Source of the DNA: Thermoplasmata archaeon
GTDB lineage: Archaea; Thermoplasmatota; Thermoplasmata; UBA10834
Reading direction: 5' to 3'
Assembly (NCBI GenBank): GCA_021789945.1
Contig: JAJYIS010000004.1
Span: 1 to 52,944, forward strand
Length of the DNA stretch: 52,944 bases
How positions within the stretch are numbered: position 1 is the first letter of the stretch; every line of letters starts with the position of its first letter. Shown here in pieces: positions 5,463 to 48,517 of this stretch. The notes under the pieces were generated by a model. That model made no database searches and was not told the DNA's origin. It was given only the letters and a program-made list of their open reading frames with translations. A program made the translations under genes and the position numbers.

Positions 5463-8066
5463 ATGGTCAAGACAAGCTGCGGCATGTGCTACGGCACATG
5501 CACCGTCGATGTGCATTTGGAGGACGGGATCGTCTCGGGGATCGAGGGAGACCCCGACTCGCCCCAGGGGTACGGGAACATCTGCGCGAAGGGGCTCTCC
5601 GCGCCGATGATGCTGTACGACCCCAGCAGGCTGAACTATCCGATAGTCCGCACGAACCCCGTGAAGGGCATAGGCGTTGACCCTGGATGGAAGCGCATCA
5701 GCTGGGACGAGGCCATGGACCTGCTTACCTCGAAGCTCAAGGAATGCATGGCGAGGGATCCGAGGGGACTGTACACCGTCGGCAGCCCCACGTTCCCCGC
5801 CGAAAGGGCATTCAACATTCTGTCCTTCAGGAAGGCCTTCGGGACCCCGAACTACTACACGGGCGGGGGAGGGCTGCATTGCGGGAACGGGGCCCACATG
5901 ATCGGGGGCATATACCACGCCTCGTGGTCCGTGATACCCGACTTCAAGTACACCAACCTCGCGATCTACTGGGGCTGCTCGAAGGGCCACGGGGCGGGGC
6001 ACGCGGCGAACGTGGCGGCCAAGCAGGCTGCGGACGCGAAGGCCCGGGGCATGAGGCTCATAGTGTTCGACCCCTTCCTGAGCACTCAGGCCTCGACAGC
6101 GGAGGAGTGGGTGCCCATCAAGGCGGGCACGGACGCTGCGGCGGCGCTCGCGATGGCGAACCTGCTCGTGAACGAGTACGGGCTCTACGACGCCGACTAC
6201 CTGAAGTGGAAGACGAACGCGGGGTATCTCATCGGGCCCGACGGGCTCTATGTCCGGGACAAGAAGACCGGGGTCCCGCTGGTCTGGAACACCGGCACGA
6301 ACAAGCAGGACGCGTTCAACTCGAAGGGCCTCAAGGACATGGCGCTCGAGGGGGACTTCGAGGTCAGCGGCGTGAAGTGCTCCCCGTCATTCAAGATCCT
6401 CAAGGAGCACCTGAAGAAGTACACGCCGCAGTACGCCTCAGAGATATGCGGGGTGCCTGCGAACACGCTCAGGCGAGTCGCGAAGGACTTCGGCGAGGAG
6501 GCGAAGATCGGCAGCACGATCAACATCGAGGGCAAGGTGCTGCCGTACAGGCCCGTCGCATCCATCTACTTCAGAGGCTCCCAGGGACACTACAACCAGG
6601 CCTGGGACTGTATGTCCCTCGTGCTGTTGAATCACTTCGTCGGAGCCGCGGATGTCCCGGGCGGCGCGCTCGCCTTCGGGCCGCCCGTGCACCTTGGATA
6701 CCCGGGCACGGGCAAGCTGAAGTACTCCGTCGAGCCGGACAAGGACGGCCTGATGGTCGCCTCGAACTGGCCGTACGCGCACCTGCCCTACCCGCCCAAC
6801 GAGCCCAAGGACCCGCCCCAGAGGCTCGACCTCCAGGACCTGTTCTACATACCCACCTACACCACGATCATGGCGTGGGAGAACAACGAGGAGCTCTGGC
6901 AGAAGTTCAAGATACCGTACAGGCCGGACGTGATGATCAGCTTCGCGACCAACCAGATCATGTCCGTCGGCAACCCGAAGACGCTGTTCGAGAACTTCCT
7001 GAAGAAGTTCAGGTTCATCGCGTCGTTCAACATCTACTCGACCGAGTTCGAGGAGGCCGCGGCGGACCTCGTGCTCCCGGACGCGAGCTTCCTCGAGCGG
7101 TACTCGTCTGCGACCACGTTCCCGACGGTAGGAGTCTCGTGCCACGCAACGGGATTGGGCGAGTGGATCTGGGCCATCAGGCAGCCAGTCATCCAGCCGA
7201 TGGCCGAGCGCAGGCCCATGGTCGATGTCATCCTCGAGCTGTCCGAGCGCCTCGGCCTCCACGACAAGTACCTCGAGGCCGTGCGCGAGTGGGTCGACCG
7301 GGCGTACGGCGGGGACATAGACCTCAAGAAGGTGTTCAAGCCCGGCGAGAAGCTCAACTTCGAGCGGCTCCTGGACGTCATCATGAAGGACAGGTTCGGC
7401 GAGGACAAGGGCCTCGAGTTCTTCAAGGAGCACGGGTACCTGAAGTGGGACAAGCGAGTGGAGGAGGTCTACTGGCGCTGGTTCAACGATGTCAGGGTGC
7501 CCGTGTACCTCGAGTGGATCATCAGGGCCGGGAGGAAGAGCAAGGCCGTCGCAGAGAAGTACGGCGTGCCCGACCTGGTCGACTGGTCAGCGCACACGGC
7601 GCTGCCCGACTGGAGGCCCTGCCCGACGCATGCCGAGAAGGATCCCGAGTACGACCTCGAGGGATTCTACTGGCGCTCGGCGCTGCACACGTACTCGATG
7701 ACCATGCAGAACCCGTGGCTCGACGAGGTCTCGCAGAACGATCCCTACACCTACACCATCCAGGTGAACGCGGAGACCGCCAAGAGGAAGGGCGTGAAGG
7801 AAGGCGACTACGTCTGGCTCGAGAACCCGAAGGGCTCGAAGGCCAGGGGCAGAGTCCACCTCACCGACGGCATCAGGCCAGATCACGTGGCGATCGCGGC
7901 AAACGCAGGGCATTGGGGCAAGGGGCTCCCGCGCGCGAAGGGCAAGGGAGTGTTCTTCAACGAGCTCATCGAGATCGACAAGGAGCACACATGCCCGGTC
8001 TCGCTGGGCCAGGACATCTGCGTCAAGCTCAAGCTCTACAAGGACGGGGGTGCGCGAAGTGGTTAG
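5463..8066 (+). CDS. Molybdopterin oxidoreductase catalytic subunit (DMSO reductase family)
   Basis: This 867-residue catalytic subunit binds a 4Fe-4S cluster and a bis-MGD molybdenum or tungsten centre. The cluster ligands are Cys6, Cys9, Cys13 and Cys41, followed by Lys43. The Mo-binding region has GGGGLHCGNGAH, making Cys140 the likely metal ligand. The C-terminal MopB_CT domain has QVNAETAKRKGVKEGD and AIAANAGHWG. There is no Tat signal: the protein begins two residues before the cluster motif, so it is predicted to be cytoplasmic. It is followed, with overlap, by a ferredoxin subunit, an NrfD anchor and fdhD. It is not an ordinary formate dehydrogenase, since the Cys is not followed by His. 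Substrate unknown. Confidence 0.9.
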   Translation: MVKTSCGMCYGTCTVDVHLEDGIVSGIEGDPDSPQGYGNICAKGLSAPMMLYDPSRLNYPIVRTNPVKGIGVDPGWKRISWDEAMDLLTSKLKECMARDPRGLYTVGSPTFPAERAFNILSFRKAFGTPNYYTGGGGLHCGNGAHMIGGIYHASWSVIPDFKYTNLAIYWGCSKGHGAGHAANVAAKQAADAKARGMRLIVFDPFLSTQASTAEEWVPIKAGTDAAAALAMANLLVNEYGLYDADYLKWKTNAGYLIGPDGLYVRDKKTGVPLVWNTGTNKQDAFNSKGLKDMALEGDFEVSGVKCSPSFKILKEHLKKYTPQYASEICGVPANTLRRVAKDFGEEAKIGSTINIEGKVLPYRPVASIYFRGSQGHYNQAWDCMSLVLLNHFVGAADVPGGALAFGPPVHLGYPGTGKLKYSVEPDKDGLMVASNWPYAHLPYPPNEPKDPPQRLDLQDLFYIPTYTTIMAWENNEELWQKFKIPYRPDVMISFATNQIMSVGNPKTLFENFLKKFRFIASFNIYSTEFEEAAADLVLPDASFLERYSSATTFPTVGVSCHATGLGEWIWAIRQPVIQPMAERRPMVDVILELSERLGLHDKYLEAVREWVDRAYGGDIDLKKVFKPGEKLNFERLLDVIMKDRFGEDKGLEFFKEHGYLKWDKRVEEVYWRWFNDVRVPVYLEWIIRAGRKSKAVAEKYGVPDLVDWSAHTALPDWRPCPTHAEKDPEYDLEGFYWRSALHTYSMTMQNPWLDEVSQNDPYTYTIQVNAETAKRKGVKEGDYVWLENPKGSKARGRVHLTDGIRPDHVAIAANAGHWGKGLPRAKGKGVFFNELIEIDKEHTCPVSLGQDICVKLKLYKDGGARSG

Positions 8067-8688
8067 GTGGGGCATGGTCATCGACCTGAAGAGATGCACC
8101 AGCTGCCACTCGTGCACGGTCGCATGCAAGGCGGAGCACCACACTCCTCCGGGAGTGTTCTGGGCGAAGGTCGTGCGCCTCGAGTCCGGCAAGTACCCCA
8201 CAGTCGTGAGACAGGCCTTGCCGCTGCTCTGCATGAACTGCAAGGAGCCGGAGTGCGAGAAGGTCTGCCCGACCGGCGCCACGAAGAAGAGGCCAGACGG
8301 GATAGTCATCGTCGACTCGAAGCAGTGCGTGGGTTGCAGGTACTGCGCGGTCGCGTGTCCGTATGGTGCCAGGAACTTCTCGAGCGACTGGACGGACTAC
8401 TTCACCGGCGAGAAGAAGCCGTCCTCGGAGTTCGCGGCACACTCGAAGAAGAAGTGGATGAAGGAGAGCGACAAGGGCGTCGTGAGCAAGTGCAACTTCT
8501 GCGTGGACCGGGTGGAGAAGGGCCTCAAGCCCGCATGCGTGAACGCGTGCCCGACCGAGGCGAGGACCTTCGGGGACCTTGACGACCCTGAGTCCGAGGT
8601 GTCCCAGCTGATAAAGAAGAGGCGGGGGATGCAGCTGCATCCGGAGTACGGGACGGATGCGAGCGTGTACTACCTGCCCGCGAGGTGA
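8050..8688 (+). CDS. Four-cluster ferredoxin subunit of the molybdoenzyme (DmsB/NrfC-like)
   Basis: This is the electron-transfer subunit between the Mo subunit and the membrane anchor. Sixteen cysteines form four 4Fe-4S sets: Cys16/19/22/26, 61/64/69/73, 93/96/99/103 and 148/151/163/167. The GTG start overlaps the end of the catalytic gene by 17 bases. An ATG at 8074 (residue 9) is the alternative start, preceded by AGGTGGGG. No signal sequence is seen, in keeping with a cytoplasmic complex. Confidence 0.9.
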   Translation: MREVVRWGMVIDLKRCTSCHSCTVACKAEHHTPPGVFWAKVVRLESGKYPTVVRQALPLLCMNCKEPECEKVCPTGATKKRPDGIVIVDSKQCVGCRYCAVACPYGARNFSSDWTDYFTGEKKPSSEFAAHSKKKWMKESDKGVVSKCNFCVDRVEKGLKPACVNACPTEARTFGDLDDPESEVSQLIKKRRGMQLHPEYGTDASVYYLPAR

Positions 8689-8695
8689 TGATGGC

Positions 8696-9652
8696 ATGGA
8701 GAGCAGTTCGACTTCGAGCGGTTCCGTCCTGCAGTTCGAGGACTTCAAGTCCGGCCCGAGGGCTCAGACGGAATGGGGGTTCGGCGGGAAGAGGAAGTGG
8801 CGCGACGGCTGGCTGCTGATGGCGATGTTCCTGGGGGGCATCGGGGCAGGGCAGTTCGTGGTCTCCACATGGTTCTTCCATTCGGTCACGAGCGCCGTGG
8901 TCGGGGTCGCAATTGTCGCGGTGGGCAAGACGGTCGCGCACCTGCTGTACCTCGGCCAGCCCTCGAGGTTCTACAGGCTGTTCCTGAAGCCGCGCACGTC
9001 GTGGATCAGCCGGGGGCTCATATTCATGATAGTGTTCGTGGCATTCGCGGCGGCGTACCTCGCGCCCGACATAGGGTTCTCGTGGGTGCCGTGGACGACC
9101 GGCTCCTCCCTCGGCCAGGCGCTCTGGCTGGGGGCGATCCTGAGCGCCTCGCTCGTGATGGTCTATGACGGCTTCGTTCTCGCGTCCTGCAAGTCGATAA
9201 CATCGTGGAACACCGCGCTGATGCCGCCTCTGTTCTTCACATACGCGATAGCCGGAGGGGTCGCGATGACCTACCTCACGGTCACCGCGGCCGGGAAGAA
9301 GATACTCAGCGAGGGCGACATGACGACCCTGGACGCCATCCTGCTGACGACGATGTTCGCGCTCGTGGTGATATACATCGTCAACATGGCCGCGTCGACG
9401 GCGACGGCCAGGGAATCGCTCAGGAGGCTCGTGGGCACGAGGCTCGCGGTCGCGTTCATCGGCCTCGCGATTGTCGCTGGCCTCCTGGTGCCGCTCGTCA
9501 TCGCATACTACCGAGAGCTCGCGGTCGAGGGGACCGTGGCGTCGGTCCTCCTGGCGGCATCGTGCATACTCGAGCTCGCCGGAGACCTTTCGATCAGGCA
9601 CTCCATACTCAGTGCCGGCCTGCACACCCCGGTCTTCTCCGAGGGGCTCTGA
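8696..9652 (+). CDS. NrfD/PsrC-like membrane anchor subunit
   Basis: This 318-residue polytopic membrane protein has about eight or nine hydrophobic helices. It belongs to the NrfD/PsrC type that links ferredoxin subunits to the quinone pool: helix one has FLGGIGAGQFV, and helix three follows HLLYLGQPSRFYR, a family hallmark. The ATG at 8696 has GAGGTG eight bases upstream. It forms the third gene of the Mo enzyme operon, so the complex is likely membrane-bound and exchanges electrons with quinones. Confidence 0.85.
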   Translation: MESSSTSSGSVLQFEDFKSGPRAQTEWGFGGKRKWRDGWLLMAMFLGGIGAGQFVVSTWFFHSVTSAVVGVAIVAVGKTVAHLLYLGQPSRFYRLFLKPRTSWISRGLIFMIVFVAFAAAYLAPDIGFSWVPWTTGSSLGQALWLGAILSASLVMVYDGFVLASCKSITSWNTALMPPLFFTYAIAGGVAMTYLTVTAAGKKILSEGDMTTLDAILLTTMFALVVIYIVNMAASTATARESLRRLVGTRLAVAFIGLAIVAGLLVPLVIAYYRELAVEGTVASVLLAASCILELAGDLSIRHSILSAGLHTPVFSEGL

Positions 9653-9681
9653 ATGCGGGCCATGCGGTGCTCCGAGGGAAC

Positions 9682-10500
9682 ATGGGCGAAGGAACCAGGC
9701 GAATGAAGGTCACGCGAGTGAGCGGCGCGGGCCGTGAGTCCGTGAACGACCTCATCTCCGCGGAGATCCCCGTGACAGTCTTCCTGAACGACGATGAGCT
9801 GGCCACGATGATGTGCTCGCCCAAGGACCTCGAAGCGCTCGCGGTCGGGTTCCTGTTCGCCGAGGGGCTGGTGAAGGACAGGATGGACATCAAGCGGGTG
9901 TTCGCGGACGCAAAGCAGGGCGGCGTGTGGGTCGAGACGAGGTCGGCCAGGCGTCCCCAGGAGAACATCGCGGGAAGGAGATACATCACGTCCGGGTGTG
10001 GAAGGGGGGTCACGTTCGTGGACGCTACGAAGGCCTCGAAGCTACTCAAGAGCCGCTCGAAGCTGAGGGTCCCCTCGAACTCCATCTCGGCCCTGATGGC
10101 GGAGTTCCTCAGGATGTCGAGGATCTACCGGCTCACGGGCGGGGTCCACGGCGCGGCCCTTGCCAGCGCCAAGAAGATACTCGTGTTCAAGGAGGACATC
10201 GGGAGGCACAACGCCGTGGACAAGGTCATCGGCGCGAGCATACTGAAGCGCATCCCGACCAAGGACAAGATCATGCTGTCCAGTGGTCGGATCACGTCTG
10301 AGATCCTCGTCAAGGCCGCGAGGGCGCAGATTCCGATAGTCATCTCGAAGGCCGCGCCCACGGACCTGGCAGTCCAGCTCGCGGACGACTTCGGCCTGAC
10401 GCTCGTCGGCTTCGCCAGGGGCTCGAGGATGAACGTCTACACGAACCCGCAGAGGATAGCCGTACGAGGAAGGGCCCGCAAGAGCTCGAGAGACTCATGA
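9682..10500 (+). CDS. fdhD: FdhD, sulfurtransferase for molybdenum cofactor activation
   Basis: FdhD passes sulfur to the bis-MGD cofactor and is required for active formate dehydrogenases. The protein has the SGCGRG motif with the functional cysteine, FLFAEGLV, and the conserved GGVHGAAL, FKEDIGRHNAVDK and SSGRITSEI segments. It is the last gene of the Mo operon, 29 bases after the NrfD-like gene. This suggests that the neighbouring catalytic subunit needs a sulfurated cofactor even though its active-site motif is not that of a formate dehydrogenase. An ATG at 9703 is the alternative start. Confidence 0.9.
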   Translation: MGEGTRRMKVTRVSGAGRESVNDLISAEIPVTVFLNDDELATMMCSPKDLEALAVGFLFAEGLVKDRMDIKRVFADAKQGGVWVETRSARRPQENIAGRRYITSGCGRGVTFVDATKASKLLKSRSKLRVPSNSISALMAEFLRMSRIYRLTGGVHGAALASAKKILVFKEDIGRHNAVDKVIGASILKRIPTKDKIMLSSGRITSEILVKAARAQIPIVISKAAPTDLAVQLADDFGLTLVGFARGSRMNVYTNPQRIAVRGRARKSSRDS

Positions 10501-23024: not shown

Positions 23025-23639
23025 TCAGTCCACCAGGACAAGGCCGGTCCATCTGACCTTACTTTTCGAGGACAGCCTCACGGGCATGCCCGCGCGCTCG
23101 CACGTTCTGACAACGTCGATCCCTACCGCCTCCATCGAAGGCCTCACCTCGAACGGGTGAACGCACTCGCGCCGACCATCCGACAGGACGCACCTGTTGC
23201 ACAGGGGGCACTCCCCGCCCGAGAATCCTGCCGCGAGGTAGAACCCGCGCTTGAATGCCTCGGCCTCGATCCTGCCGACCAGCTCCAGGAGCCGCTTCTT
23301 CCATCTGGACGAACCGTCCGTCGCCTCGACCGACTCGCACAGCTCCCGGCTGAGCGGCCGGGAGGACTTGTCCGAAGAGTCCAGGGGCGTCTCGACCTGG
23401 ACCAGAATGGCTCGGTGATAGCGCTTCAGGACCTCCCTGAACTCGTCGATCGTGGGCACGTTCGGAGGGCACATGAGGCTAGTCCCGTAGGCGGAGCACA
23501 TGGGCACCATGCACTTCAGCCTCACCCTCGGGTCCACGACGACGTCCCTCGCGCTGATTGCCTTCGCGCCGCTGGCTCCTTGCGTCTTCGCGAATTCAAC
23601 GAGCGACTCAACCACGGGATCCTTCGTGCCCTTTGCCAT
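23025..23639 (-). CDS. DUF2284 cysteine-rich metal-binding protein
   Basis: The 204-residue protein shows the DUF2284 pattern: KCMVPMCSAYGTSLMCPPN near the N-terminus, FSGGECPLCNRC in the middle and a final RTCERAG. The cysteines probably bind a metal or Fe-S cluster; the function is not established. It lies 45 bases downstream of the MttB-like gene on the same strand, so the two may be cotranscribed. Confidence 0.83.
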   Translation of the reverse strand: MAKGTKDPVVESLVEFAKTQGASGAKAISARDVVVDPRVRLKCMVPMCSAYGTSLMCPPNVPTIDEFREVLKRYHRAILVQVETPLDSSDKSSRPLSRELCESVEATDGSSRWKKRLLELVGRIEAEAFKRGFYLAAGFSGGECPLCNRCVLSDGRRECVHPFEVRPSMEAVGIDVVRTCERAGMPVRLSSKSKVRWTGLVLVD

Positions 23640-23684: not shown

Positions 23685-25157
23685 TTATTTCGATTGGCTG
23701 ACCTTGGTCAGCGATCTCAGGTTGTAGCCTTTGGCGTACTGCTTCAGAAGCTCCTCGAAATCCTTGGCCTGCTCAGGCTCGAGCGGGTCTGGGACGTGCG
23801 AACTCAGCAGCTGTGAGACCCTCGCATCCGCCCTCTGCCTCACGTCGGAATGCCCTGCGGCGGACCATTGCTGCCTGGTGGCCCTGTCCGAGAGCTTCGC
23901 GCGCGAGTGTTCCTTCCTGAACTGCGCGAGCGTCTTCGGGTGCTTGAGGTAGTTCCCCATCGGGCCAGTCTTCGCGATGATGTCCAGGGAAAGCGTCTCC
24001 TCGCTCACGTCGATGCCTTGCGCCAGGCGAAGGGCGTTCGAGGCGATCTCGTCGTCGATCATGAGCTGAGAGAACGAGAACGTGCTGAACGCCTCGGTCG
24101 AGCCGAGGAAGAGCTCTGCGAAGTCGGCACCTGACATGACGGCCATCACGGCGGCCTGGGACTTCTCGTAGGCGGTCTGGGCGTCGACGGCCTTCGAGTC
24201 GCTCTGCACGCCCATGTCGCTCGGCATGTGGTAGTGCGTCGCCATCTGGACCGAGCCGACCCCGAGAAGAGAGAACTCCGGCGAGCCCGTCGCCGACACC
24301 CCGGACCTCATGTCGAGCGGGCATGACACCGAGCCGTAGACGATCTTGGGGCTCTTCGTGACGCACTTCGCGACGACGACCGCGCTGAGTATCTCCGCGT
24401 TCTGCTGGACGAGAAGGCCCGCGAGGGATGCGGGCGCAGTGCCTCCGGCGAGCGCCATCGCCATCACGAAGACGGGCATGTCCCATTCGGCATACTGGAT
24501 CAGGGTCCTCATCATGAGGTTGTCATGCCCGAGCGGGCTGACGGGGTCTATGTACGCGGGGAACATGTGCTTCTTCCTCAGGAGCTCCCGGTCGCCCATC
24601 AGGATGTCGGCGATGCGCAGCATGAGCCCGAACTCCTTCTCGTCCCCCCAACCGCCATATGTCGGCTTTGACGAGTTCGCCAGGCCTGCGAGCCACATGA
24701 CGGCGCTCATCGATTCCTCGGGTACGTCGAAGGGATATATCGGCACATATCCCAGCGCGGAAGTGTCCAGGGCATCCAGGAGCCTAGTGGCGGCTATCCC
24801 GTCCGCGAGCGTCGTCTGCCTGGTCCGGCCGGAATCGGACTCCATGATGTTGAGGCACTGCGCCCCGGGCCCGAACTTGGTCCTGCCGTCGACGGCGTCG
24901 AACGAGTTCCTATCGCTCCTCGCGTGCCATCTGAAGTCCGGCCTGCAGCTCTTGACCGCGTCGAGAACGGCCTGCTCGCGCATCTTGGCGATCTTGGTCT
25001 TCCAGTCTATCTCGAACCCGTTCTTCTCGAGAATGCCGAGGGCCTCGCCGGACTCGAACCTGACGCCCACCCGCTCGAGCACCTCGAGGGTAGCCCCGTG
25101 GATGGCCTCGATGTCCGCGCTGCTCAGGACCTTGAGCCGTCTGCTTTCGGAGATCAT
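23685..25157 (-). CDS. MttB-superfamily methyltransferase without pyrrolysine
   Basis: This 490-residue protein belongs to the trimethylamine methyltransferase superfamily, which moves a methyl group from an amine to a corrinoid protein. Family landmarks are VLERVGVRFES, KFGPGAQCLNI, DMRSGVSATGSPEF and SDSKAVDAQTAYEK. The frame has no internal amber codon, so it belongs to the non-pyrrolysine branch, whose known members use betaines and related quaternary amines. The start at 25157 is close to the transcript start predicted from a TATA box at 25187-25198. No corrinoid protein gene is in the window. Substrate unknown. Confidence 0.87.
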   Translation of the reverse strand: MISESRRLKVLSSADIEAIHGATLEVLERVGVRFESGEALGILEKNGFEIDWKTKIAKMREQAVLDAVKSCRPDFRWHARSDRNSFDAVDGRTKFGPGAQCLNIMESDSGRTRQTTLADGIAATRLLDALDTSALGYVPIYPFDVPEESMSAVMWLAGLANSSKPTYGGWGDEKEFGLMLRIADILMGDRELLRKKHMFPAYIDPVSPLGHDNLMMRTLIQYAEWDMPVFVMAMALAGGTAPASLAGLLVQQNAEILSAVVVAKCVTKSPKIVYGSVSCPLDMRSGVSATGSPEFSLLGVGSVQMATHYHMPSDMGVQSDSKAVDAQTAYEKSQAAVMAVMSGADFAELFLGSTEAFSTFSFSQLMIDDEIASNALRLAQGIDVSEETLSLDIIAKTGPMGNYLKHPKTLAQFRKEHSRAKLSDRATRQQWSAAGHSDVRQRADARVSQLLSSHVPDPLEPEQAKDFEELLKQYAKGYNLRSLTKVSQSK

Positions 25158-25186
25158 CGAAGCCCGATGTCCAGAACCATCTACTG

Positions 25187-25198
25187 ATAGATAAAAGC
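25187..25198 (-). promoter_or_regulatory. TATA box of the MttB-like gene
   Basis: The minus strand reads CTTTTATCTATC, centred about 35 bases before the ATG at 25157. It also lies just downstream of the stop of the next gene upstream. Confidence 0.5.
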
Positions 25199-25212
25199 AG
25201 AAGGCCCGGTCA

Positions 25213-26310
25213 TCAGAGCTCGGAGCGACCGGGCCTGGGCCGGCATGGAAGTGCCACCACGACCCATGTCGCTGCAATCGGCCCCATGGCCGCGCTCAGC
25301 GCTCCCGGCTGAAGGGATGATACGGACGCGACCGGGATCGTGCTGACATGGTAGGCTACGTAGATGTCCGCCTCGATCAGGCTGATGTTCTGCGTCACGT
25401 AGTGGTGCACGAAGTACAGGTTCCCCTTCGCGTCCAGCGTCGGCTCCCCGGCGAACTGGGACACTATCTCCTCCGGCTGGGACCAGCCGCTCCCGCTCCT
25501 GACGGACCTGAAGACCGCGGGCCCAGGCTTGTTCATGGTGCTCTGGCCGGTGAACCAGAGCTCGTTCCCGCTGGGGGTCACGAACGGCTGGTCCTTGTTC
25601 ACGACCGAGTCCAGGTTCTGCACCTTGGTCGGGGCGGCCCATACGCCGTTCGAGAGCGTGGTCACCCATATGTCCCCGCCCTTTCCGTAGTACAGCGTGT
25701 TCCCGTCGGGCGTGAAGCAGAACGCGCCTATGTCTATCTGGACATTGAGCTGCTGGCCCGCGTTCTTGACATCGGTCCACTTGCCGTTCAGGTACTGCGA
25801 TGTGTAGACATCGATCTCCCCCAGGTTGCCCGTCCTGACGGACCCGAACCACATCGTGTCGTTCTGGATGAACTCGTCTCCGTCCAGAGAGTTCGTGCTT
25901 CCCAGGATCAGGCGCTGGGGCTCGGTCCATGTGCCGTTCACGAGCCTCGTCCACCAGATCCCCGTGACATGGTCCCCGAGCTGGTTCTGGAGCGGGATGT
26001 TCAGGTCAGGCGTGAAGAAGAAGAAGAACCACGAGCCGTTGGGCGTGATGAAGGGGGAGTCCTCTGCGCCCGCGGTGTTCACGGGCCCAGGCATCGGGAC
26101 GGGCGAGGACCACTCGCTCGAACGGAGGATCGGCGGGTACAGGTCGGTCGAAGGAGTCATTTTGACGGCGCTCGCGGGTATGGTGTCCAGCCTTGGCGGC
26201 ACGACGAAGCTCTCCTTCTGCGACAAGGACGCCGCTACCAGGATGACGACCACGACGATCACTACTGCCAGCGCCACGAGAGCCTTACCCTTCTTCGACA
26301 TTGGAGACAT
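25213..26310 (-). CDS. Membrane-anchored PD40/TolB-like beta-propeller protein
   Basis: The 365-residue protein has one N-terminal transmembrane helix (about 9-30) and an external repeat domain. Repeats such as SPFITPNGSWFFF, FCFTPDGNTLYYG and PFVTPSGNELWFTG are PD40-type blades, with D-I-W/Y and G-x-W elements between. GGAGGA lies six bases before the ATG at 26310. The last 40 residues form a hydrophobic stretch ending in PRPGRSEL that could be a second anchor. Function unknown; probably a surface binding protein. Confidence 0.75.
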   Translation of the reverse strand: MSPMSKKGKALVALAVVIVVVVILVAASLSQKESFVVPPRLDTIPASAVKMTPSTDLYPPILRSSEWSSPVPMPGPVNTAGAEDSPFITPNGSWFFFFFTPDLNIPLQNQLGDHVTGIWWTRLVNGTWTEPQRLILGSTNSLDGDEFIQNDTMWFGSVRTGNLGEIDVYTSQYLNGKWTDVKNAGQQLNVQIDIGAFCFTPDGNTLYYGKGGDIWVTTLSNGVWAAPTKVQNLDSVVNKDQPFVTPSGNELWFTGQSTMNKPGPAVFRSVRSGSGWSQPEEIVSQFAGEPTLDAKGNLYFVHHYVTQNISLIEADIYVAYHVSTIPVASVSSLQPGALSAAMGPIAATWVVVALPCRPRPGRSEL

Positions 26311-27060: not shown

Positions 27061-27696
27061 ATGGTGGGCGAAGCGATAAACCCGGACATCATCAAGAAGC
27101 GGATGTGGCTCGACTACCATCGTGCGTGCAGCGACCCCGTTTGTGAGAGACAGGAGTGCGTGCACGAGCTCTTGGACAGGCTGACGGCCTCCTCGATCGA
27201 CCTTCACCAGTTCCTCCAGGAGGCCGTCGACGCCCTTCACGCCAAGCTCTACCTGAGCGAGGTCACGATAGGCCTGAGACGGCCCGACGGCACCTACACC
27301 TATGAGGTCATGGCCGGCCTCCAGGACTCCGAGTGGAAGGCTCACCAGGGGCTCTCGTACGTGTACGACCAGTTCGTCAGCAAGGAGGTCTACAAGTACG
27401 AGGAGGTCAGCGAGCTGACGAGGCTGTTCCTGGCTGAGGACAACCCCTACGCGAACGGAGAGGACGAGACCTACCAGAAGGACGTGATGCTCCAGTCGAG
27501 GCGCAAGTCGCTCGAGGACTTCATAGAGGGGGACTACATCGACACGCTCGTCCTGGGCGCGGACCGCGAGCTCTGGGGCTGGATAGAGTACTCCGGGATG
27601 GACAACGGCAAGTTCCCCGACGGTCAGACCATCAAGAGCATCGAGCTGATGGCGTCGGTAATAGCGGTCGCGGTCACGCTCCTGGGGAAGCGATGA
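27061..27696 (+). CDS. GAF-like paralogue A
   Basis: The 211-residue protein is one of three related proteins in this window (others at 37519 and 44885). The shared C-terminal half has LAEDNPY, EGDYIDT, then ELWGWIEYSG, GKFPDGQTIKSIELMAS. Its strand-helix order resembles a GAF domain, though no ligand site is visible. The N-terminus carries three cysteines (ACSDPVCERQEC) that might bind metal. GGAGG precedes the start. A CCGATATAGG element at 27003-27012 could serve both this gene and the divergent DUF998 gene. Function unknown. Confidence 0.75.
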   Translation: MVGEAINPDIIKKRMWLDYHRACSDPVCERQECVHELLDRLTASSIDLHQFLQEAVDALHAKLYLSEVTIGLRRPDGTYTYEVMAGLQDSEWKAHQGLSYVYDQFVSKEVYKYEEVSELTRLFLAEDNPYANGEDETYQKDVMLQSRRKSLEDFIEGDYIDTLVLGADRELWGWIEYSGMDNGKFPDGQTIKSIELMASVIAVAVTLLGKR

Positions 27697-37518: not shown

Positions 37519-38208
37519 TTGCTTAAGACGCTCAAGGTCAATCGGGGGGAAAGCAAAGGGAATGGGATACAGTTGGGTACGGTCGACTCCGAGAGCGTCA
37601 ACAGAAGGCTGAAGTTCGAGTATCTCCGGGTCAAGAACGACCATGCCTCCAAGTCACTTGAGGTATTCACGCAGCTGGCAAGCCACCTTCAGAAGCCCCA
37701 GATATCGGTCATGGAGATGATCCAGGACGCCTCCGGGGTCTTGCAGAGGCAGTTCCGGTTGAGATGGGTCATGATCGGGCTCAAGGAGTCGGACGGGTAC
37801 TACAGGTACCTGGTCAACACTGGCATGCGGGACGACGCCTGGGCCAAGCAGAGGTCCAAGCAGTATCTGCTCAAGGACTTCGAGCTCAGCACCGAGAACT
37901 ACAGGGCCGCGGAAATCAGCAAGCTCACGAGGTCCTACCTCGAGGAGGACAATCCACTGGGTAAGAACGACGAGGGTGTCGTCAACCGGCCGGCGCTCCT
38001 GAAGGCCAAGAGGAGGACCGACGACGAAACGCTCGAGGCAGACTTCCTGGACACCCTGATAACGAGCCCCACAGGCGAGCTCCTGGGGTGGATCGAGTAC
38101 TCGGGGACCGTGACTGGCAAGTTCCCGGACGCGATCACGATAAGGCACATCGAGGTCGCCGCGTCCCTGATCGCATCGGCCGTCATCCTCAGCCGATTCC
38201 GCGCGTGA
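37519..38208 (+). CDS. GAF-like paralogue B
   Basis: The second member of the three-protein family. It shares with the others FRLRWVMIGLK, YLEEDNPLG, EADFLDTL, ELLGWIEYSG and GKFPDAITIRHIEVAAS. It has no zinc ribbon. Start uncertain: TTG at 37519, or TTG at 37573 with AAAGGGAATGG upstream; the first may lie inside the TATA box (TTGCTTAAGA). It follows the phospholipase-like gene after 33 bases. Function unknown. Confidence 0.72.
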   Translation: MLKTLKVNRGESKGNGIQLGTVDSESVNRRLKFEYLRVKNDHASKSLEVFTQLASHLQKPQISVMEMIQDASGVLQRQFRLRWVMIGLKESDGYYRYLVNTGMRDDAWAKQRSKQYLLKDFELSTENYRAAEISKLTRSYLEEDNPLGKNDEGVVNRPALLKAKRRTDDETLEADFLDTLITSPTGELLGWIEYSGTVTGKFPDAITIRHIEVAASLIASAVILSRFRA

Positions 38209-43380: not shown

Positions 43381-43707
43381 TCGCCCCCCTCCTATAGCCG
43401 ACTATCACAGGATAATCCTGCAACGGTCTTGCGGTCAGTATATCGCGGTGCATGCCTAAAAGGATGTCAGTGTCCCGCTGGGCAATGTCTCGGGGTGGCG
43501 GCATGTCGGGGACGAGGTCTCCGTCGTCCAGGGACGTATGCATGCACGAAGAGACAGTATGACAACCTAGCATTCATTCTCCAGAAGGCTTTTACGCTGG
43601 TTGGCCGATGACGAGTTGCCTGGGCGTCGCCACAGTGTACAAGGAGAACCCATCCACAAGTGCCGGGCAGCCGTCGCACTTGCCACAACCGATACCGGAG
43701 TCAGACA
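43381..43707. other. Intergenic stretch without a confident gene
   Basis: A TTTTAC element near 43589 may start the next transcript. A 38-residue minus-strand frame at 43592-43708 has a CGKCDGCP motif but no ribosome-binding site, and a 44-residue plus-strand frame opens at 43608. Neither is convincing. Confidence 0.35.
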
Positions 43708-44805
43708 TTGCAGGCGAAGGAGATAGACAAGGTCGTTGACGAGGCTTCCAGGAGGCTCTTCCAGATAGCGTCACCGGCAATCCGATACTACATTCTCACG
43801 AGCCTCTGGGGAAGACCACAGGACAATGTCATGGTCCAGAAGGCGCTCGAGGAGTCGAGGGGCTATGCACCCAAGGTCAAGCTCCTAGAGAGGCAGAACG
43901 CCGATGGCACATGGCCGATCCCGGTCCATAAGAGGGCCGAGGAGGAGGCCGGTCCAGGTCAGCCCTACGGCTGGACCTACATGACGATGCTGAGGAACCT
44001 GAACGACCTCACCGACTACCTCGCGACGAGGGAGGACGGGCACATCGAGGACGCACTCGAGAGGATCCTGAGCTGGCAGACGGACGAAGGGTACATCCCC
44101 GGCCCGTGGAACGTCCCGTTCCCACTCCCGCATTTCAACGGCCACGCCCTCAGGATGTTCCTCAAGTTCGGGATGGAGAAGGACCCCAGGGTGCAGAAGC
44201 TGAGTAGATGGCTCGTGAAGGCCCAGAGGCCGGACGGAGGCTGGAGGGTCCCGTATCTCGAGGACGTCAAGTACGATCCGAAGTACAGGCTGATGCGCCG
44301 GTCGGACTTCATCGACCTCATCAAGAAGAACCGGGTGGAGCCGTACGACCCTAGGAAGTTCGACAGCATCCCGAGCTGCATCTGGAGCACGGTCATGGTC
44401 ACGAGGGCGTTTTCCTGGAGCGTCCGGATGGTGGAGTCCCCGGAGACGAGACGTGGTGCGGAGTTCTTCCTCAACAGGTTCTTCCAGAGGAACTACCACG
44501 CGCTCATCTACCAGTCGGCCAGCAACTGGACGAAGCTCCGCGACCCGAACTACATCGGCAACGGACTGTGCGCCCTGGACATACTCACCTGGATAGGGTA
44601 CGGCGCGGACGACCAGCGCATGGAGAGACCCATCAACTGGCTCTACGGGTCGCGGTCCCCGGACGGGCTCTGGAACCAGACCGACAGGCCCCAGCCGAAC
44701 AGGGACGAGTCCATAACGGAGATCGCCCTCGGGATCCTTTCGCGGTACTCCAACTCGATCAAGAAGAAGCCTTTCGGGTACAAGGCGAAGGGAATGGGCG
44801 TCTGA
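43708..44805 (+). CDS. Terpene-cyclase/prenyltransferase-like alpha-toroid protein
   Basis: The 365-residue protein is made of helical repeats with QW-like motifs: RQNADGTWPIP, WQTDEGYIPGPW, AQRPDGGWRVP and GSRSPDGLWNQ. These occur in squalene-hopene cyclases and related toroid proteins. The DxDD acid motif of class II cyclases is not visible, so enzyme activity is doubtful. The TTG at 43708 has GGAG nine bases upstream; a GTG at 43660 is the alternative start. Function unknown. Confidence 0.75.
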   Translation: MQAKEIDKVVDEASRRLFQIASPAIRYYILTSLWGRPQDNVMVQKALEESRGYAPKVKLLERQNADGTWPIPVHKRAEEEAGPGQPYGWTYMTMLRNLNDLTDYLATREDGHIEDALERILSWQTDEGYIPGPWNVPFPLPHFNGHALRMFLKFGMEKDPRVQKLSRWLVKAQRPDGGWRVPYLEDVKYDPKYRLMRRSDFIDLIKKNRVEPYDPRKFDSIPSCIWSTVMVTRAFSWSVRMVESPETRRGAEFFLNRFFQRNYHALIYQSASNWTKLRDPNYIGNGLCALDILTWIGYGADDQRMERPINWLYGSRSPDGLWNQTDRPQPNRDESITEIALGILSRYSNSIKKKPFGYKAKGMGV

Positions 44806-44884: not shown

Positions 44885-45685
44885 ATGAAATGTCCTACCT
44901 GCGGGTTCGAGAATCCGAAGTCCTACGGCCCCTGCCAGAGGTGCGGCAAGTACCTCGGGGCGTTTTCAATGCAGGCGCCCAAGCAAGCCGACACGTCTGC
45001 TCGGAAACCGACATTCGATTTCTCCAAGGAGATCAGCTACACCAGCAGGGCGCGCGAGGAGACCTCGACTCACGAGGACATCGCGAAGAAGATGAAGCTC
45101 TACTACCTCCACGGGACTAGGGAGCCGAACCAGAGGACGCTCGAGGTAATCCTGAAGCTCATGGAGGGCCTGAGGGCGAAGAACCCGGACACCCGCGAGA
45201 TCATCGAGGAGGCCGCCAACTACATCCACGACCAGTACCGGCTGCGATGGGTGGCGATTGGCACGAAGAGCGCCAAGGACGGGATCTTCAGGTACGAATC
45301 GCTGGTCGGCTTCAGGGACGAGGCGATGCTTGCCCGGAAGCGCCAGACCTTCAAGGCGGAGGACTTCCTACAGGACGCCAGGTACAAGGGATGGCCGATC
45401 AGCGACTACTCCAAGATGTACTTCGAGGAGGACAAGCCGTACTCGGACGGCGCGGAGTCGACCTTCAACCGGCCCGCCCTGCTGAAGTCGAAGAGGCATT
45501 CTCCCGAGGACGCACTCGAGGCCGACTACCTGGACGTCCACATCTTCGGCCCCGACAAGGAGCTCATCGGATGGATCGAGACTTCCGGGACAATCACAGG
45601 TAAGCTCCCGGACGTCCAGACGATCAAGACAATCGAGATCATAGCGTCGATAGTCGGCGCAGCCCTGGTCCGCGCAAGGCAATGA
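44885..45685 (+). CDS. GAF-like paralogue C with N-terminal zinc ribbon
   Basis: The third and longest member of the family (266 residues). A zinc ribbon (CPTCGFENPKSYGPCQRC) opens the protein. A helical middle follows, then the shared C-terminal domain: YRLRWVAIGTK, FEEDKPYSDG, EADYLDVH, ELIGWIETSG and GKLPDVQTIKTIEIIAS. Paralogue B shares RPALLK with it. The ribbon suggests that the family links a sensing domain to a protein or nucleic acid partner. Function unknown. Confidence 0.75.
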   Translation: MKCPTCGFENPKSYGPCQRCGKYLGAFSMQAPKQADTSARKPTFDFSKEISYTSRAREETSTHEDIAKKMKLYYLHGTREPNQRTLEVILKLMEGLRAKNPDTREIIEEAANYIHDQYRLRWVAIGTKSAKDGIFRYESLVGFRDEAMLARKRQTFKAEDFLQDARYKGWPISDYSKMYFEEDKPYSDGAESTFNRPALLKSKRHSPEDALEADYLDVHIFGPDKELIGWIETSGTITGKLPDVQTIKTIEIIASIVGAALVRARQ

Positions 45686-45855: not shown

Positions 45856-47238
45856 CTAGAGCTCAGGGCTGAGCTCGAGCCCGAGGTCCGTCATCTCCGC
45901 CTTGAACCTCTTGACCACCGCAGCATATTCCTTAGAAGGTTTCCTCGAACCCGCGTCCCAGCATTCCTGATGGATCTTCCCGAGGGGCGGGTCTGCGAGC
46001 CTGGACTCGTACTTCCGGAGCAGGGCCTCGGCGATCCGATTCGCCTCGGTCCTCTTCATCCCGGCCGCCGCGTGCGCCACCTCGCCCGAGATCCTCGGCT
46101 CGACGGGGGTCATCCTGTCCTCGAACTTGTTCGTCGCGGTCCCTCCCATCTCTATTGAGAGGCCGGAGGCGACAGCGGCGATGACCGAGGCCGATGTCTC
46201 CCGCAGGACCATGGGGGTGCACGGCCCCGCGGCCGTGTAGTTCAAGCTCAGGCTGAGCAGATGCGTGTTCCTGCTGACCGCCTGGCCCATCGTGCTGATG
46301 ACCCACAGCATGTCCCTGCTGCTGTTGGAGACGTATCTCAGGTGGAGCGGGAATGGGATCAGATAGCTCGTCTGCAGAGTCAGCAGACCCATGAGATGGC
46401 TCGCGACCGCGCACACGGCCGTCCCCTCCGGCCCTCCGGAGTAGCCGCCGAGAAGGGGCGCGAAGTCCATCCCTATCGGCGCCCCCATCGAAAGTGCGAG
46501 GGTCACCTTGTTGAGCCTGGCGAAATCGACCTTCATCGGGTCCATGCTGGCTATCATGAACCCGTCCGAGCTCCTCAGCCCGTACCTCGGCATCATGGCG
46601 GCCGCGAGGGCGATGTCTGATTCGGCGGTCGCGAGCGTGTTCATGAACGGGATGCCCTCCCTTCCCGCCCTGCTGCACGCCTCCCGGGCAAGGGAGGCAT
46701 TCCTCATCGCGCCGAGCAGCTCGAGAGGGGACGCGGGCCTGATCCGCATCCCACCAGCGCGAGTGATCGCTGGCGTGGTGATCGCGTCCACCTCGGGTAT
46801 CTCAGCGTAGCCCTCCATGAGCGTGAGGAACGACTCTTCGCCCGACACCGGCCCGCCGCCGGCGCCCAGGAGACACCACGGGGGAGTCCTGTCCTCCGGC
46901 TTCCTAGGGACGAACGCCCTTCTGTCCCTCCCCTCCCCGAAATGCACCTTCGAAGGCGAGTTCCTGAGCGCCTCCTTCACCTCCCCCTCGGTGTAGCTGA
47001 TGACTCGCCCGGTATCGATGCAGTATGCTCCTACGTCGACGAGGAGCTCGAGCCCGGCCTGGAAGAGATCGTCCGCGAGGGAGTCGTCGTCCGGAACGGG
47101 GAGGCTCGGGTCGTACTTGATCTTGAACTCCCGGACCTTCTCCTTCACCTTCGGGGAGAACCTGCGGAGCTGATAGTCGTTCTCGCTGACCGGGGCGCCG
47201 TTGAGAGCCTTCTCCACCACATCTAGGATCTGAACCAT
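45856..47238 (-). CDS. MtmB-family (monomethylamine methyltransferase) homologue without pyrrolysine
   Basis: The 460-residue protein matches MtmB in length and along its sequence: LFQAGLELLVDVGAYCIDTG near residue 60, LGGYSGGPEG, AGPCTPMVLRETSAS and SGEVAHAAAGMKRTE. MtmB moves methyl from monomethylamine to a corrinoid protein with pyrrolysine (UAG) at residue 202. Here the matching stretch is TLATAESDIAL, with Glu206 (GAA at 46621-46623) in that place. Thus the known chemistry cannot operate. The start at 47238 has AGGAGGAAG seven bases upstream. It lies downstream of a saccharopine-dehydrogenase-like gene on the same strand. No pyl or corrinoid genes are in view. Confidence 0.85.
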   Translation of the reverse strand: MVQILDVVEKALNGAPVSENDYQLRRFSPKVKEKVREFKIKYDPSLPVPDDDSLADDLFQAGLELLVDVGAYCIDTGRVISYTEGEVKEALRNSPSKVHFGEGRDRRAFVPRKPEDRTPPWCLLGAGGGPVSGEESFLTLMEGYAEIPEVDAITTPAITRAGGMRIRPASPLELLGAMRNASLAREACSRAGREGIPFMNTLATAESDIALAAAMMPRYGLRSSDGFMIASMDPMKVDFARLNKVTLALSMGAPIGMDFAPLLGGYSGGPEGTAVCAVASHLMGLLTLQTSYLIPFPLHLRYVSNSSRDMLWVISTMGQAVSRNTHLLSLSLNYTAAGPCTPMVLRETSASVIAAVASGLSIEMGGTATNKFEDRMTPVEPRISGEVAHAAAGMKRTEANRIAEALLRKYESRLADPPLGKIHQECWDAGSRKPSKEYAAVVKRFKAEMTDLGLELSPEL

Positions 47239-47365: not shown

Positions 47366-48517
47366 TCAGAGAGCCACTATCTCCCGCCGGACCTCCAGCC
47401 CCTTCTTCGGAAGCCTGGCCAGCAGCTTCTCCGCGGGCAGCTGCTCGGGGACCAGGAAGCCTTTCTCCTTCACCTCGCCCTCTATCAGCAGCTCAGCCGC
47501 CGCGGAACCGCCGCTGCCGACGAGGTATCCTGTGGCGTTGCTCCTGCAGAGTTCATGCGCCTTCTCGTGGGACATCATGACGCACTGCTTGACCATCGTC
47601 CTCTTCCCGCCCTTGAGGCCATAGACCTCGACCACGATCGCCGCCCAACCCTTGACCTTGCCAATCAGGTCGACGGGCCTGGGCATCGTCGCGACCACCA
47701 CGTCGATCGGCCGCACCTTGACGCCCTTGACATCGATCGGCTCGAGGCCGTGCATGCCGAGCTTCCGGATCATCCTGGCAGCTGCCGCCCAGCTGTCATC
47801 GATCGCGATCCTGAAGTCGGCGTTCCTCAGGCCCTTGATGAACCTTGGCATCAGATAGGTCTCCTCGTGGTTCGTCTTGTAGACGGGGAGTCTGCCCACG
47901 GGAGCCGGGAAGTCGTAGAACTCCTTCTCGTGCAGGGGCGGCACGAACTCCAGCTTTCCGTCCCTGAAGACGGCCGCGGGGACCGTGGTCTCCTCGAGGA
48001 GGTCGATCGGCGACCACAGAGAGAAGAACTCGTAGCCTTCCGCGGAGCCGCTGTCGCCGTCCATGACCCTCGCCTCCGTGGCCTCGTCCAGGAGCGCAGC
48101 CCCGGCCTTCGCCATGCAGTCGGAGATCCCCGGGTCCTCGCCGGTGGCCGTCAATGCGGTGATCCCCGCATCGCTGACCATCTTGACAGTCGGAGCGTAC
48201 TGCTCCATCCTGTCTATCGTCAGGCAGAAGTCGACGTAATTGGCGCCCGAGGACGCTGCGGCCTCGAGCACCTTCATGTTCAGCTGCCAAGGCAGCGAGC
48301 TCACGACGAGGTCGCAGCCTTTCAGGAGCTTCCTCAGGTCGGGAGTCCTCGTCGCCTCGACCTTCCTCAACGATATCTTCTCGCTCTTGACGCGAGCCGC
48401 CATCGCCTCGGCAGCGTCCGTCCTCGCGTCGGCGAGGACGACCTCGTCAACGCGGGGGTTTTTCGTCAGTTGTTCCGCGCACACAAGCCCAGTTATTCCG
48501 CAACCGAGTTGCACCAC
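47366..48517 (-). CDS. Saccharopine-dehydrogenase-like oxidoreductase
   Basis: The 383-residue protein has a Rossmann start VVQLGCGITGLVCAEQL and the family's LLKGCDLVVSSLPWQLN, GANYVDFC and TGEDPGISDCMAKAGA (substrate-side) segments. Related enzymes act on lysine-derived imines or carboxynorspermidine. It begins at a GTG and lies 127 bases before the MtmB-like gene on the same strand, so they probably form an operon and could act on the same amine-containing compound (inference). Confidence 0.83.
   Translation of the reverse strand: MVQLGCGITGLVCAEQLTKNPRVDEVVLADARTDAAEAMAARVKSEKISLRKVEATRTPDLRKLLKGCDLVVSSLPWQLNMKVLEAAASSGANYVDFCLTIDRMEQYAPTVKMVSDAGITALTATGEDPGISDCMAKAGAALLDEATEARVMDGDSGSAEGYEFFSLWSPIDLLEETTVPAAVFRDGKLEFVPPLHEKEFYDFPAPVGRLPVYKTNHEETYLMPRFIKGLRNADFRIAIDDSWAAAARMIRKLGMHGLEPIDVKGVKVRPIDVVVATMPRPVDLIGKVKGWAAIVVEVYGLKGGKRTMVKQCVMMSHEKAHELCRSNATGYLVGSGGSAAAELLIEGEVKEKGFLVPEQLPAEKLLARLPKKGLEVRREIVAL

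Follow-up and report, generated by a model that had tools for sequence, protein, structure and literature searches.

A pyrrolysine-free homologue of MtmB

The window, a DNA stretch of 52,944 nucleotides from a Thermoplasmata archaeon, encodes on its minus strand (45856..47238) a 460-residue homologue of the monomethylamine methyltransferase MtmB in which the position of pyrrolysine (Pyl) is taken by a methionine. The protein, one of two paralogues in its genome and referred to here as paralogue A, is probably a corrinoid-dependent demethylase of the MtmB type that acts without Pyl on an already charged methylated amine, its corrinoid protein being encoded elsewhere. Pyl-free MtmBs are already known, and the window gene joins a barely characterised family.

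The open reading frame is intact, extending from an ATG at 47238 to a stop codon that ends at 45856 and is included in the coordinates, with AGGAGG about 10 nt 5' of the start codon and no in-frame TAG. The Pfam model of MtmB, PF05369, matched the protein over positions 1-450 of 450 (E=4.6e-100, 336 bits, against a curated cut-off of 25 bits); no NCBIfam model matched it. Among solved structures only MtmB1 of Methanosarcina barkeri was recognised as a relative by sequence, with 230 bits for 1tv2 and 1l2q in phmmer and 574-576 bits in a profile search. The AlphaFold (AF2) model (pLDDT 92.5, pTM 0.93) has the MtmB TIM-barrel fold and superposes on 1l2q, 1nth and 1tv2 with a TM-score of 0.94 at 1.5 Å, MttB-type structures coming next at about 0.5. 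Homology to MtmB over the full length, as originally predicted, is thus well founded. Comparison with three orthologues gave dN/dS values of 0.08-0.12 and, with a ratio of about 0.1, paralogue A is evidently under strong purifying selection.

Methionine at the pyrrolysine position

The original prediction regarded the protein as a Pyl-free relative of MtmB with Glu206 in place of Pyl. The first part stands, as Met199 occupies the Pyl column and the frame holds no TAG; the second does not. The segment TLATAESDIAL is indeed found at residues 201-211 and Glu206 is encoded by GAA (46621..46623, minus strand), however, this residue lies opposite Ser209 of MtmB. The assignment was made using phmmer and a MAFFT alignment of 67 sequences, comprising 32 clade members, 34 Pyl-MtmBs of Methanomassiliicoccales-like archaea (an order name which is inferred) and MtmB1; the M. 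barkeri row, entered by hand, agrees around Pyl202 with the PDB alignment from phmmer. In both alignments AGRPGMGV-Pyl and AGREGIPF-Met pair without gaps from the conserved AGR motif, which sets Met199 (codon ATG, 46642..46644, minus strand) against Pyl202. This column contains Met in 32/32 clade members and Pyl in 34/34 of the Methanomassiliicoccales-like homologues. In the AlphaFold model Met199 sits on the barrel strand 198-200, the same position as that published for Pyl202, which is anchored to a barrel strand (PMC9842639). Glu206, seven residues further on, is excluded as the Pyl-position residue by phmmer, MAFFT and the model alike, although it is invariant in the clade (32/32), as had been proposed for checking. 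Since Pyl202 aligns with Met199, the protein is correctly described as having Met in place of pyrrolysine.

The surroundings of Pyl have changed as well. His228, Glu229, Glu259 and Gln333 are invariant in the 34 Pyl-MtmBs of the MAFFT alignment and all four are replaced in the Pyl-free clade, by Phe/Tyr227, Met/Leu228, Asp/Cys258 and Leu332 respectively; the window protein thus has neither a TAG at 202 nor any of the four partner residues. Tyr335 of MtmB is kept. Overall, 33 positions are fixed differently between the Pyl and Pyl-free classes, while 52 near-invariant positions are common to both. Paralogue A therefore resembles MtmB1 (1tv2, 1l2q, 1nth) in family, length, fold, Tyr335 and these 52 positions, but differs in its overall sequence (31% identity), in the residue at Pyl202 and the four around it, in the lack of a neighbouring mtmC and in a host where neither PylRS nor MCR was found. 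As the window protein contains no pyrrolysine, Pyl chemistry is impossible for it.

Distribution and relationship to known systems

Matches to MtmB were found in 22 of 60 related genomes. In the order of the window (families f1 and f2) these are Pyl-free copies, as a rule two per genome, with identities of 65-83%; in two of the 60 genomes (G036 and G046) MtmB contains TAG. Of 390 genomes drawn from the phylum, 40 had MtmB, and outside the genus of the window these belong to Methanomassiliicoccales-like families with TAG copies. Among the genomes searched, the Pyl-free clade occurs only within a single order of Thermoplasmata, in nearly all searched genomes of which it is present. In the tree, which we read as unrooted, one fully supported and very long branch splits the Pyl from the Pyl-free sets, the path from the clade to the Pyl-MtmBs amounting to 2.3 + 3.0 changes per site; branches of this length indicate that function may have shifted further.

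The clade also lacks PylRS as far as searched, a point that had been raised for checking: no PylRS match above the TIGR02367 cut-off was obtained in the genomes of the order that were searched (that of the host is 88% complete), and MCR was not found in them either. The host archaeon appears unable to make methane. A tRNA scan of the window found none, and homologues were neither found on plasmids nor confirmed on viral contigs. An in-frame TAG suspected in one relative (L051) is probably an ordinary stop codon, the tblastn match over 1-457 being stop-free. In the isolate UBA9653, the second paralogue, B (L026 8001-9874 / L046), appears to be in pieces in different frames, owing either to an assembly error or to a pseudogene.

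The original prediction held that Pyl-free relatives of MtmB are little known, and this has been overtaken by the literature, in which a tree of 1,061 Pyl and non-Pyl MtmBs, with many Pyl-free ones that have no assigned function, is available together with the only Pyl-free MtmB reported with an assayed function (PMC13044021). The latter, MtqB of Methanococcoides methylutens Q3c, was described in 2026 as removing methyl groups from tetramethylammonium and choline with the help of its cognate corrinoid protein; its modelled site is rich in sulfur and aromatic residues, among them a conserved Met (PMC13044021). By description, rather than by comparison of sequences, MtqB is like the window protein in being a Pyl-free MtmB homologue and like the second paralogue in having an adjacent corrinoid gene, unlike them in that the window host appears not to be a methanogen. 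The Pyl-free MttB family (MtgB for glycine betaine, MtpB, MtcB and MtyB; PF06253 / COG5598) may serve as an analogy, as it takes methyl groups from quaternary amines by corrinoid-dependent chemistry and does so without Pyl; however, it is another sequence family and resembles the model only at a TM-score of about 0.5.

The order of the window is probably Ca. Gimiplasmatales (UBA10834), an identification which we infer. For MAGs of these non-methanogenic Thermoplasmata, a published description reports mtmB, mttB, mttC and the Wood-Ljungdahl pathway with no MCR, and proposes methylotrophic acetogenesis (PMC11264602). Pyrrolysine goes unmentioned in that paper and, as far as it was consulted, neither the paralogue pair nor the dimethylargininase link discussed below is described.

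Two paralogues with and without a corrinoid partner gene

Paralogue B is encoded on another contig of the same genome (C42) and is 73% identical to paralogue A. A corrinoid-protein gene directly precedes it in 16/16 loci, with a gap of 4 bp in the genome of the window. Beside paralogue A no such gene was observed in any of 15 family loci including the window, within the available flanks, some of which are short; the window copy thus lacks the adjacent cognate corrinoid gene that accompanies MtqB. One copy from an outlying family (L043) has A-type residues, groups with B and still has an adjacent corrinoid gene. This retention is suggestive, rather than proof, of the A lineage having lost its partner gene. 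Paralogue A as a strict clade is unsupported, as both L043 and L051 fall with the B copies (94). In genus g3 (L016, L018, L019), paralogue B forms one four-gene cluster with its corrinoid gene and two MttB genes.

Seven sites (141, 230, 231, 258, 292, 305 and 331) are fixed to different residues in the two paralogues; five of them lie on core barrel strands, which make up 36 of the 460 residues (hypergeometric p = 4e-5, a value which is descriptive only since sites in one alignment are non-independent). From A to B, these include a change of AS to CC at 230-231. Residue 258, the counterpart of MtmB Glu259 (46465..46467, minus strand), is Asp in 16/16 copies of paralogue A and Cys in 15/16 of paralogue B. 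Together, the differences at 230-231 and 258 point to different substrates for A and B. The pair, with its corrinoid gene absent or present and its seven fixed differences, five on core strands, makes it possible to ask what takes the place of pyrrolysine, how the choice of substrate shifts and whether orphan methyltransferases share corrinoid proteins.

Proposed reaction and methyl-transfer genes of the host

We propose that the substrate of paralogue A would carry a positive charge already, being a quaternary or otherwise activated methylated amine, and would most likely be bound in the cavity which Pyl202 fills in MtmB. Met199, Phe227, Met228, Leu332, Tyr334 and Asp258, together with Glu206 in the loop that follows the strand, may replace the Pyl activation apparatus. 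The methyl group would be presented to cob(I)alamin, carried by a corrinoid protein whose gene lies at another place in the genome; the neighbour of paralogue B on contig C42 is the most likely candidate. The methyl group could then pass via a methyltetrahydrofolate:corrinoid methyltransferase to methyl-tetrahydropterin, and from there to MTHFR or acetyl-CoA synthase instead of methane.

The other components of such a route are present in the genome (2.01 Mb, 88% complete; selected stretches read). A search for corrinoid proteins, as suggested originally, returned three (contigs C42, C39 and C96). A methyltetrahydrofolate:corrinoid methyltransferase (PRK07535, above cut-off) is encoded beside the corrinoid gene of C96; contig C60 carries an intact corrinoid activase as well as a CdhC domain (acetyl-CoA synthase) in an open frame of 1,446 codons; and MTHFR is encoded too. 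There are 18 MttB-type matches; since the methyltransferase genes number about 20 and the corrinoid proteins three, the latter are likely to be shared. One Pyl-free MttB homologue (PF06253) lies in the window at 23685-25277 (minus strand), followed on the same strand by a DUF2284 predicted metal-binding protein (23025-23639). The gene set fits the methylotrophic acetogenesis that the description of Ca. Gimiplasmatales proposes (PMC11264602) and, along with the clade, supports the view that sediment archaea can be methylotrophs without being methanogens.

Gene neighbourhood and alternative explanations

A saccharopine/carboxynorspermidine-dehydrogenase-like gene (47366..48517, minus strand; PF03435/PF16653) lies upstream of paralogue A across a gap of 127 bp, the solved structures closest to its product being 4ina and 8deb. 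It belongs to an expanded family in the order, and homologues occur no more than 5 kb from paralogue A in 9/15 loci. In most genomes of the family, dehydrogenase paralogues are placed about 0.3 kb or less from the corrinoid activase (RACo) gene, as on contig C35 of the window's own genome (G000:C35, L159 2679-7161), which suggests a tie between the dehydrogenase family and the corrinoid system. The original prediction stated that the protein must use other chemistry or another substrate, and noted its pairing with a dehydrogenase gene instead of a corrinoid gene. The pairing, on the same strand, was confirmed; the missing corrinoid neighbour does not imply other chemistry, because paralogue B follows a corrinoid gene, three corrinoid proteins serve about 20 methyltransferase genes and dehydrogenase paralogues adjoin the activase. 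On the other side of paralogue A, a squalene-cyclase-like repeat protein (43660..44805, plus strand; weak PF13243) is matched by homologues in 7 further loci of paralogue A. Such sharing of neighbours may stem from common descent of gene order and not from function.

A more specific version of the proposed role is that paralogue A shares a corrinoid protein and, as a Pyl-free MtmB, acts on a substrate new to the superfamily; one example would be a methylated amino acid with links to dimethylargininase and to a dedicated saccharopine-dehydrogenase-like enzyme. We consider this a tentative option; if it is true, the turnover of proteins or osmolytes supplies non-methanogenic archaea with methyl groups for the Wood-Ljungdahl pathway. 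No paper in the literature searched links saccharopine dehydrogenase or dimethylarginine to corrinoid methyltransferases, or deals with a dehydrogenase-like gene beside RACo.

Dimethylargininase (DDAH) converts methylarginines to citrulline and mono- or dimethylamine. In such a catabolism of methylated arginine, paralogue A might demethylate, without Pyl, the amine so released or a related methylated amino acid. A DDAH-family gene is located near paralogue A, upstream of it, in 8/15 loci, about 70 bp away in genus g3, a relative of that of the window (72-73 bp in the loci measured), and 372 bp away in one genome from the same genus as the window (L030, G007). The term dimethylargininase is used here on the basis of resemblance and of the conserved catalytic Glu/His/Cys, the scores being under the NCBIfam equivalog cut-offs. 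However, unless activated by Pyl, free mono- and dimethylamine donate methyl groups poorly, the residues which surround Pyl in Pyl-MtmB are gone, the DDAH genes of the window's own genome are on other contigs (C81/C87) and one occurs near a paralogue B locus too (L025). Even with the little methylamine activity reported for MtqB (PMC13044021), we regard this explanation as rather unlikely.

Departure from corrinoid chemistry altogether, with paralogue A as a TIM-barrel enzyme coupled to the saccharopine-dehydrogenase-like protein and with an amino acid or polyamine as its substrate, would account for the linked same-strand dehydrogenase and for the lack of an adjoining corrinoid gene. It is improbable in view of the high identity to paralogue B, which always occurs with a corrinoid gene, the few differences between A and B and the proximity of dehydrogenase paralogues to the activase gene. 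A decaying or non-catalytic relict of MtmB, for which the lost Pyl site and partner residues could be taken as signs, is hardly credible given the low dN/dS, the invariant new residues and 33 fixed class-specific sites, the retention in nearly all searched genomes of the order and the full-length fold of the AlphaFold model. We thus prefer to read paralogue A as a demethylase that depends on a corrinoid and acts on a methylated amine which already carries a charge.

Elsewhere in the window, genes for a molybdopterin oxidoreductase, an Fe4S4 protein, an NrfD-type membrane subunit and FdhD follow one another at 5463-10500 (plus strand), which by sequence resembles a polysulfide/formate-type respiratory module. 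Three proteins encoded at 27061-27696, 37519-38208 and 44885-45685 (plus strand) appear related by eye, with the C-terminal pattern ...GWIEYSG...GKFPD..TI..IE..AS...; the two that were scanned, at 27061 and 44885, gave no Pfam match, and the three may represent an undescribed family.
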